Source of the DNA: Veillonella sp. 3310
GTDB lineage: Bacteria; Bacillota; Negativicutes; Veillonellales; Veillonellaceae
Reading direction: 5' to 3'
DNA length: 64,000 nt
NCBI RefSeq assembly: GCF_003999875.1
Contig: NZ_RQVJ01000007.1
Location: 1 to 64,000, forward strand
In this document: piece after piece, positions 179 through 8,800 of the stretch
Numbering within the stretch: position 1 is the stretch's first letter
Layout of the letters: each line of letters begins with the position of its first letter
Translations under genes and position numbers: made by a program
The notes under the pieces: generated by a model
What the model was told of the DNA's origin: nothing
The model's database searches: none
What the model saw: only the letters and a program-made list of their open reading frames with translations

Positions 179-213
179 CTAAGAAAATTAAAAGTGCTTG
201 TGTCTCAAGCACT
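179..213 (-). terminator. Intrinsic terminator facing leftward
   Basis: An 8-bp perfect stem AGTGCTTG/CAAGCACT (193-200 and 206-213) with a 5-base loop is followed on the minus strand by a T-rich tail. It sits just upstream of the rRNA promoter and would insulate it from transcripts coming from the repeat block or the nitroreductase gene. Confidence 0.55.
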
Positions 214-290
214 GAATGTATTATATGATATTTTTAAATAATTTGCAACCCCTTATCTCAATTATTTTCAAACTTTATTAAAAACTATAT

Positions 291-600
291 CTACCAAGGA
301 ACACCATCTTTGGGTAGAGCATTTTGTGACGTCATATTTGCCTAAATATAGAGATATAGAAACGAGCAACATATTCCATGACCACCCCTTGTAGCTCCAT
401 TATGTGTAGAATATTTTTGCCGTTCTTTCTCCCTAAATATAGAAACGATAAATATGTTCTAAGACCTCCCTTGGAGCGTCATCATGGGTAGAACGTTTTG
501 CGCTGTTCTTTCTACCTAAATGTAGAAACGCAAAAACGAGCAAGATGTTCTATGACCTTCCTTGGAGCGTCATCATGCGTAGAACGCTTTGTGGCTTTTT
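291..600. repeat. Degenerate tandem repeats, about 83-91 bp units
   Basis: Four imperfect copies begin near 291, 380, 463 and 554, giving spacings of 89, 83 and 91 bases. The best-conserved core is CCTTGGAGCGTCATCATG followed by GTAGAACG, then CCTAAAT(A/G)TAGAAACG. Copies 3 and 4 are most alike; copy 1 is the most decayed. Each copy can fold: left and right arms are TCTACC/GGTAGA (copy 1), ATATTC/GAATAT (copy 2) and GTTCTA/TAGAAC (copies 3 and 4). I see no convincing protein in the block, and its function is unknown. Confidence 0.6.
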
Positions 601-625
601 TACTATCTAAATTACACATATACAA

Positions 626-692
626 GAAGAGCACGGTGTGCTCCGAACAAACATTATGAAATACCGTTTGTGAGGAGTATACCGTGCTCTTC
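626..692. repeat. 67-nt compound hairpin
   Basis: Arms GAAGAGCACGGT (626-637) and ACCGTGCTCTTC (681-692) are perfectly complementary over 12 bp. Inner pairs CTCC/GGAG and ACAAAC/GTTTGT extend the fold towards the loop. It lies 45 bases beyond the nitroreductase stop on the minus strand. A terminator role is possible, but no U-tract follows on either strand. Confidence 0.6.
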
Positions 693-736
693 CCTTCATC
701 ATATTCAGTTAATAACCGCCACAAGGCAGAATAGTA

Positions 737-1477
737 TCAAAAGTGAAACCCTTGTTTTTCCGCTATTCTAATCAATGCACTTCTCTTCTCATCTTTTAGT
801 TTCAATCGACCCACTACTTGATCCGTAAATTTGGGCAATGGGTAATTTGGACTACGAAGATCGTAGTATTGGTTCATCTCTTCATCGTAATCTTCCAACA
901 ATTCATGGTAGTTATCAAACGTACTGTATGCATCATCAAATACATTCGCCTCTCTTGGCATGCGTGGTTTCAATGCCGGTTTTTGATCTGCCATACCTAA
1001 TCCAAGTCCTAACACAGGAAATGTTAATTCAGGCAATTTCAAAATTTCGATTATTTTTTCTGCATCATTTAACACACTACCTAGATACACTGTACCATAT
1101 CCTGCTAGTTCTGCGGCGGTCACCATATTTTGTGCCGCTAGGCAAGCGTCAGTCCACCCTTGAAAGAATCGATCTGCATCACTTGCTGTATCAAGGTCTA
1201 GCCCTTTTTCTTTCATAATTTGTGCATTACGATAGGCATCTACCACGAATACAAACAATTCTGGCATATCTTTCACATAGTCTTGCTTACACACCTCTGC
1301 AATGGCTGCTTTTATTTCTGGGTTTACAATACGGATGATACTAAACGTTTGCATGCCCATACTGGTGGCAGTCCGCTTCGCTACATCTAGCAAAATACTC
1401 AAATGTTGCGGAGATACACGCATCGGTTTATATTGGCGAATACTTTTATGATCTAACATAATATCAATAGGGTTCAT
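737..1477 (-). CDS. NfsA/NfrA-type nitroreductase family protein
   Basis: This is a 246-residue flavin-dependent oxidoreductase of the nitroreductase fold, expected to use FMN and NAD(P)H in the cytosol to reduce nitro compounds, quinones or flavin. The N-terminal HKSIRQYK segment matches the family's conserved N-terminal Arg/Ser FMN-contact motif. The long C-terminal arm with YDLRSPNYPLPKF resembles the NfsA/FRase I subgroup. I chose the ATG at 1477 because TAGGAG lies 8 bases upstream; the reading frame runs open 30 codons further without an equal ribosome site. It is divergent from the SIMPL gene. The physiological substrate cannot be told from sequence. Confidence 0.85.
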   Translation of the reverse strand: MNPIDIMLDHKSIRQYKPMRVSPQHLSILLDVAKRTATSMGMQTFSIIRIVNPEIKAAIAEVCKQDYVKDMPELFVFVVDAYRNAQIMKEKGLDLDTASDADRFFQGWTDACLAAQNMVTAAELAGYGTVYLGSVLNDAEKIIEILKLPELTFPVLGLGLGMADQKPALKPRMPREANVFDDAYSTFDNYHELLEDYDEEMNQYYDLRSPNYPLPKFTDQVVGRLKLKDEKRSALIRIAEKQGFHF

Positions 1478-1555
1478 AATTTCACTCCTAACTTTCATCA
1501 TATTTTCATACAGATTGTGTAGTATAATAACAATACAAGGTGTACTGCGTATATT

Positions 1556-1585
1556 ATTGTAGGGCACTCATTTTTTATTTGTCAA
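1556..1585 (-). promoter_or_regulatory. Promoter for nitroreductase gene
   Basis: TTGACA (1585-1580) and TACAAT (1561-1556) on the minus strand are 18 bases apart. The predicted start is near 1549, giving a leader of about 70 bases ahead of the ATG at 1477. Confidence 0.5.
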
Positions 1586-2807: not shown

Positions 2808-4718
2808 TTATGCACGATCTTTAATTTCTTGTTGGATGTTGGCCAAGAATTCTTCCCAAGGAATCGCACCTTGTTCGCCTACGCCACGTTTACGAACTGC
2901 CACTTTTCCTTCTTCCACTTCTTTGTCACCCACCACAAGCATGTAGGATACTTTTTCCATTTGTGCTTGACGAATTTTGTAACCAATTTTTTCGCTACGA
3001 TCATCTAGTTCCACACGTACATAGGCATCTTTAAATGCTTTACGTAATTTTTCAGCATATTCTACATGTTTTTCACTGATTGGAAGGATTTTCACTTGCA
3101 CTGGTGCCATCCAAGTTGGGAATGCGCCTGCAAAGTGTTCGATCAAGATACCAATGAAACGTTCCATAGAACCGAAGCACGCACGGTGAATCATAATTGG
3201 ACGATGTTTTTGTCCGTCTTCTGCGATGTATTCCAAGTTGAAACGTTCTGGCAAGTTCATATCCAATTGGATAGTACCACATTGCCATGTACGGCCGATG
3301 GAGTCACGAATATGGAAGTCTAATTTAGGACCATAGAACGCACCATCACCTTCGTTGATACGGTATGGAATACCTTTTGCTTCGATCGCTTCACGCAATG
3401 CTTCAGTTGCCAATTCCCAAATGGCATCGTCGCCGATAGCGCCTTCAGGTTTTGTACTTAATTCTACATGATAGGACAATCCGAATTGAGAGTAGATACG
3501 ACCGAATAGATCGATAACGCTCATTAACTCTTCTTTAATTTGAGATGGTGTCATGAATACATGCGCATCATCTTGTGTAAAGCTACGTACACGGAATAGA
3601 CCATGCAAAGCACCGCTCAATTCATGGCGATGTACTAAACCAAGTTCTGCCATACGAATTGGCAAATCACGGTAGGAATGCATTTCATTTGCATATACCA
3701 AGATACCACCTGGGCAGTTCATTGGTTTGATTGCATATTCTGCGTCATCAATTTGTGTAGTGTACATATTTTCACGGTAATGGAACCAGTGACCAGATGT
3801 TTCCCACAAATGTTGGCTCAAAATAATTGGAGTACGAACTTCTTCATAATCATAGTCGTGGTGTACTTCACGCCAAAAATCTTCTAAGGCATTGCGCACT
3901 GCCATACCTTTTGGTAAGAAGAATGGGAATCCTGGACCTTCTTCTTTGATGACGAATAAGCCAAGCTCTTTGCCCAATTTACGATGGTCACGACGAGCCG
4001 CTTCTTCTAATAAGTGTAAGTATTCTTCTAGTTCTTCTTTCTTTTCAAAAGCAGTACCGTAAATACGTTGCAACATTTTATTTTTTTCATCGCCACGCCA
4101 GTATGCTCCTGCAATACTTTGTAATTTGAAAGCTTTTACTTTACCGGTGCTTGCTAAGTGTGGGCCTGCACAAAGGTCTGTAAATTCACCTTGTTTGTAC
4201 GCAGAAATCACTGCATCCGCTGGCAAATCATTGATTAACTCTACTTTATAATTTTCATGTTTAGCCGCGAAGAAATCTAATGCTTCTTGGCGTTCCATCA
4301 ATACTTTTTCGATAGGTAAGTTTTCTTTTACAATACGGCTCATTTCCGCTTCGATTTTTGGCAAATCTTCTGGCACTAATTTATGTTCCATATCGATGTC
4401 ATAGTAAAAACCATTTTCGATAGCTGGTCCAATCGCTAATTGTGCATCTGGCCATAAACGTTTCACAGCTTGTGCCATCACATGAGATGCAGTATGACGG
4501 AATGCGTGTTTGCCACCGTCTTCTGCAAATGTTAAAAAGCTTACTTTAGAGCCTTCCACTAATACTTCACGTAAATCTGTTAATTCACCGTTTACATCTG
4601 CGGCTAATACTTTTTTTGCTAAACTATTTGATAATTGTTTTACTGCTTCACCTAATGTTGTTCCTGCTGCAAAGGCTTTAGAACTTCCATCAGGTAAAAT
4701 GATATTTACTTCACTCAT
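2808..4718 (-). CDS. thrS: Threonine--tRNA ligase
   Basis: This cytosolic class II synthetase of 636 residues charges tRNA-Thr. Domains in order are: an N-terminal TGS domain (about 1-60); the editing/zinc-type second domain with HTASH near residue 75 and LCAGPHL near 180; the class II catalytic core with FRVRSFTQDDAH and NEGDGAFYGPKLDF; and a C-terminal HGTP anticodon-binding domain. Length is normal for the family. The start follows TAGGGAGGTAAC. Expression is controlled by a T-box leader immediately upstream, so the gene is induced by uncharged tRNA-Thr. Confidence 0.97.
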   Translation of the reverse strand: MSEVNIILPDGSSKAFAAGTTLGEAVKQLSNSLAKKVLAADVNGELTDLREVLVEGSKVSFLTFAEDGGKHAFRHTASHVMAQAVKRLWPDAQLAIGPAIENGFYYDIDMEHKLVPEDLPKIEAEMSRIVKENLPIEKVLMERQEALDFFAAKHENYKVELINDLPADAVISAYKQGEFTDLCAGPHLASTGKVKAFKLQSIAGAYWRGDEKNKMLQRIYGTAFEKKEELEEYLHLLEEAARRDHRKLGKELGLFVIKEEGPGFPFFLPKGMAVRNALEDFWREVHHDYDYEEVRTPIILSQHLWETSGHWFHYRENMYTTQIDDAEYAIKPMNCPGGILVYANEMHSYRDLPIRMAELGLVHRHELSGALHGLFRVRSFTQDDAHVFMTPSQIKEELMSVIDLFGRIYSQFGLSYHVELSTKPEGAIGDDAIWELATEALREAIEAKGIPYRINEGDGAFYGPKLDFHIRDSIGRTWQCGTIQLDMNLPERFNLEYIAEDGQKHRPIMIHRACFGSMERFIGILIEHFAGAFPTWMAPVQVKILPISEKHVEYAEKLRKAFKDAYVRVELDDRSEKIGYKIRQAQMEKVSYMLVVGDKEVEEGKVAVRKRGVGEQGAIPWEEFLANIQQEIKDRA

Positions 4719-5154: not shown

Positions 5155-5790
5155 TTAACTCTTATCCCATGTTTCTTTTGCGGTTTCCAACAAACCTTTA
5201 AGACGTGCTAAGCCTTTTCTTCGCAATCGATGGATATAACTATGACTGCATTCCAAGGTATCCGCTATGGATGCTACACTGTGATCTTTGTAATACACTT
5301 CTTCCACTACGTGCTGCTCCGCTAAAGGTAACTGTTTCATAGCCGATGTAACCATAGCTCCATACATGCGTTCCTCGCAAACAATTTCTGTAGACGGACC
5401 TTCAGCGGGCAATTGTTCCCACCAAGTTTCACCATCTTCTGTTTCCGATTGTAGCACAATCCCTTCCTTACCTTCCTTACGAAGATAGTCCAAGATACGA
5501 CCTCGAATACGATGCACTGCATAGAGGGAAAAGGCTACGCCTTTCTTAGAATCATATCGCTCTACCGCTTCAATGAGCCCTATCGTACCCTCTTGAATGC
5601 AATCCATCCTATCTACCTTAGAAGATTGATACACATTAGCTTCTTTCAACACTAAAGGTTGGTAATGCTCAATGATCGTCATACGAGCCTCTAAGTCTCC
5701 TTGTTCCTCGTAAGCCTTCCAGAGCTTTTGTTCTTCTTCCCAGGTCAACAATTCAATTGTATCCACACTGGCAATATAATCATTGAGCAT
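5155..5790 (-). CDS. Sigma-70 family RNA polymerase sigma factor
   Basis: This 211-residue alternative sigma factor should bind core RNA polymerase and redirect it to a small promoter set. Region 2 is seen around residues 60-110 (MDCIQEGTIGLIEAVERYD, then FSLYAVHRIRGRILDYLRK). Region 4 lies around 152-205 with a helix-turn-helix (VASIADTLECSHSYIHRLRR). There is no region 1.1, and no anti-sigma gene is visible nearby. Its ribosome site AAAGGAGGTG overlaps the end of tamB, so it is translated as the last gene of the envelope operon. Which promoters it reads is unknown. It is larger than a typical ECF factor and closer to the general stress/sporulation size class. Confidence 0.85.
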   Translation of the reverse strand: MLNDYIASVDTIELLTWEEEQKLWKAYEEQGDLEARMTIIEHYQPLVLKEANVYQSSKVDRMDCIQEGTIGLIEAVERYDSKKGVAFSLYAVHRIRGRILDYLRKEGKEGIVLQSETEDGETWWEQLPAEGPSTEIVCEERMYGAMVTSAMKQLPLAEQHVVEEVYYKDHSVASIADTLECSHSYIHRLRRKGLARLKGLLETAKETWDKS

Positions 5791-5803
5791 ACTTTCACCT
5801 CCT

Positions 5804-8800
5804 TTAGAATCGATAACGCCACTGCGCCCCTAAGTAGTGTTTATTTTCATTATTAATCCATCCTGTAGCACTAATGCTACGATTGATATCATACTGAAAA
5901 CCATATGACACATGGTCATTTTTAAGGCCCCTAGTTAAGGTAATCATCAAATCTGGTACTACATATTTACCGATAGTAACGTTAAAATTATTTTTTTCCT
6001 GCAAATCACGAGAGTCTTTTCCATCTAAAGAACCTGTGGTAATATTCACCAAATCCAATCCCAAGGTATCTTGCAACACATCTTCAATATAGCCAAATGC
6101 CAAAGACTGTAAGCTAGATGTCAGTAATGCATTGGCATCTTCCGATGTAACTCCACTAGCATTGCCCACATTTCGACCAAATGTCAACAGCGAAATGATT
6201 TGACGTTCCGACAAATTAGGTTCAGACGTTAATTTTAATTTCATCTGCGTCGCAGGTCCTTCCGCTTGTAAAGATATGCGATAGTTTTTCACATTCGCCA
6301 TACTCCGTACATTCAGCTCAGGAATGATACTGCCCGTGACAAATTTCGCCTGTCCTTCTGTGATTTTAAAGCGATTTTTCAAATATTTTACATATCCTTT
6401 GTTGACGGATAACTTACCACTCGCCTTCGGTTCCCCTACAGTTCCTTCAAATTTAACCTTACCTTGTAAGAACATATCGTAAAGCAATGGATTATAAAGA
6501 CGCACGTTTTCTTTTGCATCGATGGTCAAGTCTAAACCCACTGGAATCGATGTATCTGAACTTTCAAAGCTCAATGGAATCGAACCCACCACGTCATGCA
6601 ATGTAATAGCTCCCACCAATTTCGGCATTTCCGGTGTATCCACAATATATAGTTCTCCATCTAACGGTCCTGTATAAAACTCATGACCAATTTCAATGCC
6701 TTTCATCTGTAACGCACCATAGTAGGATGTAATACGAGAACCCATCCAACCAATATTCCCAGATAGGCCTGCATTGCCTTTTCCCATGGTGGTGCTACCT
6801 GTAATATCTACATGATTACCACGGAACAACAACTGCCCTTTTAGTTGAGTCACTGGCTTTTTCAAAGATTGTAATTGCATGGACCCACTAGGGAGCTCTA
6901 CAGTACCATTGGCCAAGATATTCGACGAATTGCCTGTCACATGAACAACACCACGAATAGCACCGTCAGCGGACTGCACTTCTTTAAACATCAAGGGCAG
7001 AACGGACAAGTTTGCTTCATTCATATCCACGTACACGTCAAATTGCTTGCTTTTATCATCCGTTACGTATTCATTGGTTACAAAAGCGCTCAATGGTAGC
7101 TTACCACGAACTTTTATTGAAGAGTCTGATTTTTTAATCATTCCTTGTTGAATATTCACTACTTGGTCTTCCATAGTTCCTAATATACTCAACTGATCTA
7201 GACTAATACCATTGATGACTGCTTGTTCCACTTCACTGGAAAATTCTACCTTTGGCGATTTTGTAAGTCCATGTACATTGATGATAAAGTTCCAATTTCC
7301 CTGTGCATTTACATCTTTTGTAACTAGCGGCAATACGGTTTGCACTGGCACTTTTGACGCCACTAATTGAATATCCGATGAGCCATCTAAATCAGCTTTA
7401 CCTTTGCCCACAATGACCCCTTCTTTAATAGGTAACTTGAAGGTACGAATATCAATGGTTCTTCCACCATAACCTAGGTCAAGCGTAGCCGTTCCTACCA
7501 CTTCATCACGAATAGTCGCATCCTCAAGAGTCCCTTTTACATCTAATCTTGGACTGTCACTAGTACCACCTAACTCAATGGTAGCCTGCAACTTGCCATT
7601 CACATCTGGTACTTGTGCATTGGTTAATGCCAATAATTGATGCAAATCTCCATCTCGGACACGTACATACCCAAATAAGCGTTTTGGATTCTCTAATTGA
7701 ACCCCACCTTTCACTTCGTATTGACTAGTGCCACTGCCTGTGAAAGTTAACCCTTGTAGATGTACTACCTGTGGTGTAATATACACAGAACCTGCTATAT
7801 CATGCAAGGTAGTATCTTGCACCTGCATCGTATCGGACTGCACGTTTCCTTCAAAGATCGGTGCATCCACCGTGCCACCGAGATGACCTTCTGCCCCTAC
7901 ATAGCCAACCATGTGGAGTCCCGCATCACGAACGAAAGGTTCAATAGGTACTGCATCGCCTACAAAATTAATATCTAACTGCTTATCTTGTATATCCCCA
8001 TCTACAATGATAGAGGATCCATAAGTACTGATATCTAACCTTGGCAAATGGAGATGACCATCATGATATGTATAATTCCCTTCAATGGATGTAAAAAGTT
8101 TACCATATGCGGAACCATCCCAAGCTTTTAGATGACCTTCTATTTGCGGTTCTTGTAACGTTCCTTGCACATGAATATCCGTATTAAGCCATCCCATCAT
8201 AGGAATATCTGTAAAGGTTGGCAATACATCTTCGATACGCACATCCTTTGCAGAGCCTTTGATATCCATCGCACCGTCTAACTGGATAAATCCATCTAGG
8301 TCATAAGTGCTTTTTCTATATTCCAGCTCCCCTTCAAGAATAGTAAGGGTATTATCATCTAACTTTGTTTTAATAAGTCCACGGTCAAACTTGGTTGTTC
8401 CATAGGAAAGAGTTTCACCAGCAATCATAACCGTTCCTGTCGGATTTTCTAGGGCCCCTTGTAAGTTAGCCTCCACAGAAACAGTACCGCCCAACGGTTT
8501 AGGGCTCCACTCATTGAACTGTTCTAATCCAATATTAGTACCATGTAAATTAATACCAAATGTACCATTGCCTAATCGACCATTACCCGTGAAAGTGCCT
8601 TGACCCCAAGTACCATTTAGGTACGGCACTACTAGCTGTGTACCATCCCAAGATACGCTGGCATCCAAGGTATCCACTAAGATAGATTGATACCCAATGT
8701 GGCTTCCATGTACAGATCCGTTTATATTGGAAATCAATCCTTGTTCCCCTTCAATGGTTAAGGACCCACTCACTGTGCCCTGTACAGAAGGCAAGCCCTC

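Follow-up and report, generated by a model that had tools for sequence, protein, structure and literature searches.

A tandemly expanded copy of a composite palindromic repeat in Veillonella sp. 3310, a family confined to one genus-level clade among the genomes searched

The window analysed here is a stretch of 64,000 nucleotides from Veillonella sp. 3310 (contig NZ_RQVJ01000007.1, positions 1 to 64,000, forward strand). Positions 292-612 hold four degenerate tandem left modules and half of a hairpin arm, and this array leads into a complete hairpin at 626-692, followed by an inverted right module at about 704-748. A nitroreductase-family gene reads toward the element, and its stop codon (737-739) falls within the right module at a distance of 45 bp from the hairpin. 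Left module, hairpin and inverted right module together make up a composite palindromic repeat, and the feature is one copy of it that has expanded in tandem. Its parts are as follows.

292-353, plus strand: degenerate left-module copy 1 (unit profile, E = 4.6e-5)
361-447, plus strand: tandem unit 2, the 5' half of a hairpin arm (AAACGAGCAACATATTCC) fused to a left module (unit profile, E = 9e-23)
444-530, plus strand: tandem unit 3 (unit profile, E = 6.4e-27)
535-612, plus strand: tandem unit 4, whose left module doubles as the left module of the complete element (unit profile, E = 3.5e-23; element profile, 578-695)
626-692, plus strand: central hairpin; stem of about 19 bp with a GA/AG internal loop, upper stem CAAAC/GTTTG (inverted repeat; fold z = -9.85; covariance model)
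704-748, plus strand: inverted right module (GTTAATAACCGCCACAAGGC...AAAAGTGA), ends approximate (by eye against other copies)
737-1567, minus strand: nitroreductase-family gene, reading toward the element (open reading frame; PF00881, E = 2.2e-18 over 740-1480)

The original prediction described tandem units of about 83-91 bp, and these were recovered with the unit profile and by repeat comparison, in which the unit at 443-521 (reference) was repeated at 360-438 (61%) and 534-612 (82%) with spacings of 83 and 91, a further repeat pair with an identity of 74% being formed by 311-383 and 485-557. The array is not due to chance, because positions 200-700 gave 77 matches in the same genome at E ≤ 0.001 (self matches and opposite-strand palindrome matches counted). 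A core of one type had been noted for all four copies; in its exact form, CCTTGGAGCGTCATCATG, it is present in copies 3 and 4 only. Aligned in register, the arms of copy 2 are ATATTCC / GTAGAATAT and those of copies 3 and 4 are ATGTTCT / GTAGAACG. The covariation inside the array is weaker than claimed because the arm pairs that had been quoted as changing together sit two bases out of register; they mostly reflect this shift, and what stands, by our reading, is one true double change (A-T to G-C), at which copies 3 and 4 agree. Folded singly, the tandem units were weak and did little better than shuffles (z = -1.57, -1.89 and -1.16), which rules out the array as a stand-alone structured tandem. 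Its left modules are joined to the 5' half-arm of a stem type that differs from that of the complete hairpin, and by eye the arm type of unit 2 is that of the full hairpin at L032 2467-2583. The suggestion of a recombination relic fits the local array, as truncated left modules in tandem, again terminating in a full hairpin, also occur at L018 5676-5961. The window array may represent a stack of left-module/half-hairpin units left behind by unequal events.

No rRNA match was obtained within the window, although an rRNA operon had been thought to adjoin the array. Only a minus-strand TTGACA-17-TATTAT site at 135-107 and a leader-like sequence suggest an operon past the contig end. Closeness to an rRNA operon, which had been offered as an explanation, does not account for the feature, and an rRNA-specific feature was rejected, because the family is dispersed over the genome with copies on nine contigs.

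By far the strongest structure in the array region is the complete hairpin, whose inverted repeat arms lie at 626-657 and 661-692 and which is matched by the covariance model at 625-693 (83 bits). The segment 620-698 folds with -43.2 kcal/mol and z = -9.85 on the plus strand and with z = -6.52 on the minus strand. The strong covariation described below resides in hairpins of this type, and neither this hairpin nor the right module had been part of the original prediction. In copies elsewhere in the genomes, the full composite element extends over about 190-220 bp. Described on strand B, which is the plus direction of the window, it comprises a left module near GAGGAACGCAGTTA.GCGTAGTAGCCTTGTGGCG..CTTACTACCTAAAT, a spacer, the hairpin (stem of about 19-21 bp with a GA/AG internal loop, upper stem CAAAC/GTTTG), a second spacer (TATTCAGTTA), and the inverted right module CGCCACAGGCTACATAGC..ACAAGTGACG. 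Left and right modules are complementary and form terminal inverted repeats of the MITE type, imperfect ones, and the modules vary in internal copy number as in BOX-like modular repeats. Whole units stand in tandem with a spacing of 140-147 bp at the relatives' loci L078, L104 and L103, and hairpins appear, by our reading, nested between the halves of another at L032 9325-9794 and L033 5674-6909. Right modules also occur in tandem (ACATAGCGTTACAAGTGACGACC-like units; L061 363-743, L112 7222-7766 and L032 2337-2713), so that both element ends can expand. At L030 15084-15754, three identical copies with a period of 276 bp represent a local segmental triplication. Rfam gave no match over the element in the window, and L002 and L003 matched only miRNA families with scores under the gathering score.

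In an alignment of 16 stem types, 18 of the 26 pairs showed double changes and the covariation score amounted to 0.542, compared with 0.258 when shuffled and at most 0.180 when slid, and the number of further pair types was not above that of shuffles (30 versus 29.7). The share of paired cells is raised in this alignment because its 16 rows were picked for at least 13 Watson-Crick pairs of 18. A less selected count started from 127 full copies, of which 121 were parsed and 120 used; it gave 1894 Watson-Crick, 225 G.T, 26 A.C and 15 other cells over the first 18 stem positions. On a nearest-neighbour tree of 138 distinct stems we found 74 double compensated changes, 58 single wobbles, 42 single disruptive changes and 14 changes of other kinds. 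The left and right modules of one copy match each other better than they match those of other copies (15.20 versus 12.39-12.79), and own-partner fit exceeds the mean of the others in 83% of 118; covariation, tree and module-fit events are not fully independent because the counts use paralogues. Selection for the fold, proposed earlier for the tandem units, is not borne out by these units alone but is well supported by the complete hairpin and by the left-right module fit across dispersed copies. Continued compensation of this kind needs either selection on the folded strand or repeated conversion from intact copies, and both may act.

The better fold is on strand B for 210 of 253 distinct hairpins, and in 218 of the 253 G.T stood against A.C at 378 to 44. 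At stem positions 5-8, G.T occupies 196 of 480 cells and A.C only 1 of 480, whereas outside these positions the asymmetry is gone (29 and 25 by our sums). The G.T excess as proof of a plus-strand RNA was weakened by this confinement to positions 5-8, where it may reflect the folded B strand or a conserved sequence motif.

A search of this genome and its relatives for further copies, suggested in the original prediction, revealed a dispersed family in the whole genus. We found 66 distinct hairpins in the 1.87-Mb genome of strain 3310, both palindrome strands merged, and the covariance model built from 16 stem types gave 113 matches at E ≤ 0.01 in a scan that scored 150 of 887 first-look candidates. 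The element is present in 6/6 genomes of the genus with dozens of copies per genome. In a search at the family level at E ≤ 0.001, 7 of 28 genomes were positive, namely the six of the genus and one with a weak match (31.6 bits) in genus g2, and the covariance search at the same threshold found the element in 0 of 21 genomes of genera g3 and g4. At the order level, using stricter filters, 6 of 61 genomes were positive at E ≤ 1e-5 and none of the 55 others. Among the genomes searched, the family is thus confined to one Veillonella genus-level clade. The exact loop string (21 nt) was found in 93 stretches of the genome collection, and the 80 of these matches that were listed all belong to Veillonella sp. 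VA142, VA139, VA137, 3891 or CHU740; it was found in 0 viral contigs. A phage or plasmid origin was rejected, positions 573-760 of the window being without match in phages or plasmids. In literature searches on Veillonella and repeats of this kind, no title among the papers listed describes the family.

The density of copies is uneven, with 12 of the 66 hairpins on the 760-kb contig C1 and 16 on the 134-kb contig C5 by our count. The sign of the GC skew flips on C1 between 214 kb and 300 kb and on C5 between 38 kb and 68 kb; these changes are terminus-like and origin-like, respectively, C1 being the contig poor in hairpins and C5 the rich one. Of the 15 contigs in the assembly, two (C8 and C9) end inside a copy. 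Near another contig end of this genome, at C2:310067-310869 (L024), there is a second multi-copy cluster, beside which lies a 91% match to window positions 200-253, possibly the flank of another rRNA operon.

The sites are largely common to the species, and most of them closely follow the stop codon of a gene that is read toward the element. On both flanks, 30 of 38 clusters of strain 3310 with flanks matched an element-bearing site of a relative, at least one flank of 108 of 114 relative clusters was placed in element-bearing stretches of strain 3310, and 158 of 178 flank placements fell within 400 bp of a copy there. These counts are biased toward sharing, since possession of a copy was the criterion by which the loci of both sets had been chosen. 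Among 12 shared sites that we inspected (our selection, counted by eye), at least 8 have a stem that differs between species yet stays paired, examples being L034 5005-5385 compared with L107 and L063, and L011 compared with L106, where one T-A pair is A-T. Among the sites compared there was no clean empty site and no target duplication. One candidate empty site, L025 of strain 3310, lacks a segment of about 200 bp which in L072 contains a second copy; no target duplication is evident there, and a deletion fits equally well. Hydrophobic open reading frames of 25 codons were noticed beside hairpins in L025 (about 4393-4512), in L072 and in L080 (within 5569-6221). They are preceded by a recurring leader (CAACGTGAGTTGGGCTCATCTC or close), have no Pfam match, and presumably resemble small type I toxins.

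In 28 of 38 clusters of strain 3310 with both flanks, the hairpin match ends 13-63 bp away from a stop codon whose gene reads toward it, and the right module occupies this interval; in 32 of the 38 a gene reads toward the hairpin at any distance. When the relatives are included, 94 of 135 clusters lie within 80 bp of such a stop codon (open reading frames from 60 codons). By convention, positive GC skew marks the leading strand; in the window, skew is negative throughout and the minus strand carries 54 of the 59 open reading frames with 90 or more codons. Strand B was opposite to the leading strand, as judged by GC skew, in 130/130 scored clusters (at least 60 bits and |skew| of at least 0.05; 5 low-skew and 22 weaker clusters left out), and that every copy obeys this orientation holds only within these limits. 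Over all hairpins of strain 3310, one orientation relative to GC skew was found in 60 of 66, including 34 of 34 with both modules, and the 6 that point the opposite way are all among the 32 without both modules. Two of these exceptions (L172 and L174) look like plain terminators by our reading. At L172 3960-4152, a stop codon is followed directly by a tandem pair of divergent-type hairpins (loop CTCAGTGGAACGTAA) in the opposite orientation. Gene direction accounts for much of the orientation bias: among 143 gene ends with a gap of 100 bp or more behind them, 118 belong to the leading strand, and gene direction alone would give 38/38 with a probability of 7e-4 if sites were independent. The relatives add little independent weight on orientation because most sites are shared. 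In all 24 convergent gene pairs with clear skew, the right module is turned toward the gene on the leading strand.

By architecture and behaviour, as described in the literature, the nearest known system is BOX. According to PMC3049150, BOX elements of Streptococcus pneumoniae are likewise modular, intergenic, strongly folded, variable in internal unit number, restricted to a clade and slow in present movement. However, 60.8% of BOX lie on the leading strand, in contrast to the single orientation of 130/130 scored clusters and 60 of 66 hairpins of strain 3310. REP, REPIN and BIME sequences, as described in PMC3733652 and PMC6006769, are also palindromic, dispersed, located close behind the 3' ends of open reading frames and arranged as paired inverted units; REPs measure 20-40 bp and carry a GTAG or CGTC foot, GTAG types being tied to RAYT transposases (PMC3733652, PMC6006769) and CGTC types being said in PMC3733652 to lack one. 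The Veillonella hairpin alone has 67 nt (626-692), and the Y1 transposase domain (IS200/RAYT type) was found in 0 of 6 genomes, whereas control genomes were positive in 5 of 14; the family was not filed as REP because of this size and the missing domain. By eye, CGTAG occurs in the left module and CGTCAC in the right module, neither at the base of the main stem. Hairpins and a one-strand preference at the replication fork are shared with IS200/IS605-type transposons, as described in PMC6006769. Unlike these, the family came without a Y1 transposase in the six genomes, and, provided that the leading strand is the one with positive GC skew, its better-folding strand does not serve as the lagging-strand template. 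Miniature elements that contain tandem repeats are known from Porphyromonas gingivalis, as MITEs with internal minisatellites (PMC4596501), which differ in that no parent insertion sequence (Y1_Tnp and RVT_1 searched in 6 genomes) and no target duplication were found in Veillonella. Present mobilisation by a Y1 transposase was rejected, the domain being absent from all six genomes, as was a general reverse-transcriptase element, RVT_1 occurring in 1 of 6 genomes only. By these descriptions, we regard the family as a variant of palindromic interspersed repeats.

On balance, we lean slightly toward an old non-autonomous palindromic element, BOX/REP/MITE-like, that spread in an orientation set by replication, is now mostly fixed and has its fold kept by selection. 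The shared sites and the restriction to one clade favour a spread before the six species split, and the uniform direction of complete copies suggests either a spread coupled to the replication fork or a loss of copies facing the wrong way. The element would now be mostly immobile, growing and shrinking through local module duplication, with copies exchanged among sites by recombination, and the pairing of the hairpin would be kept because the folded single strand still matters. This strand would most likely act as RNA at gene ends, where it may serve in end formation, in stability or in blocking antisense transcription; such a role would be the simplest present function because of the position, but the T runs are poor. 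Counted against the mobile-element reading are the absence of a Y1 transposase as mobilising enzyme from the six genomes, the lack of a clean empty site among the sites compared, the 6 of 66 opposite hairpins, the large part of the orientation explained by gene direction, and the number of pair types at the level of shuffles (30 versus 29.7).

The location 13-63 bp behind a stop codon in 28 of 38 clusters would also suit a role in terminating transcription or in stabilising the 3' end of the leading-strand gene, for which the hairpins would have been kept and spread, and module-less hairpins such as those of L172 and L174 do resemble plain terminators. The 12 bases after the stem contain a mean of 7.15 T on the gene's strand compared with 5.43 on the other strand; however, TTTT comes after the stem in no more than 37 of 120 copies when the gene's strand is read and in 20 of 120 when the other is, the strand of the gene folds worse in 210 of 253 distinct hairpins, and termination alone does not predict that the right module should face the leading-strand gene in all 24 convergent pairs with clear skew, so we consider this possible but rather doubtful. 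Pairing might instead be maintained in long palindromes by template switching or by conversion from other copies, as structure without function; tandem, nested and chimeric copies are in line with this, and copies may exchange since most sites are shared. Yet such self-correction has left G.T at stem positions 5-8 in 196 of 480 cells while A.C occurs in 1 of 480, and far-apart left and right modules also fit each other, which makes it very unlikely to us. Equally slight is the prospect of a replication-polarised structural element with a folded strand that serves at the fork or in transcription facing it, and with an orientation kept by function and not by the mode of insertion. Complete copies are indeed oriented without exception and their fold is kept through sequence change, but the absence from 55 other genomes of the order (E ≤ 1e-5) indicates no general need, the density is uneven (12 of 66 hairpins on the 760-kb C1, 16 of 66 on the 134-kb C5), and gene direction explains much of the bias.

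For a repeat family, such strictness of orientation is unusual. It is conceivable, though unlikely in our judgement, that the family acts as a genus-specific mark of chromosome polarity, read by structure and not by sequence, with dozens of large hairpins at fixed sites and in one orientation relative to the fork, stems that may vary in sequence but not in pairing, and a folded strand that has its use at the fork or in transcription toward it. Genome work in this clade is affected as well, since contigs end in copies. Together with their many compensated stem changes, the orthologous hairpins of the six species would allow a direct measure of selection on a DNA or RNA fold.
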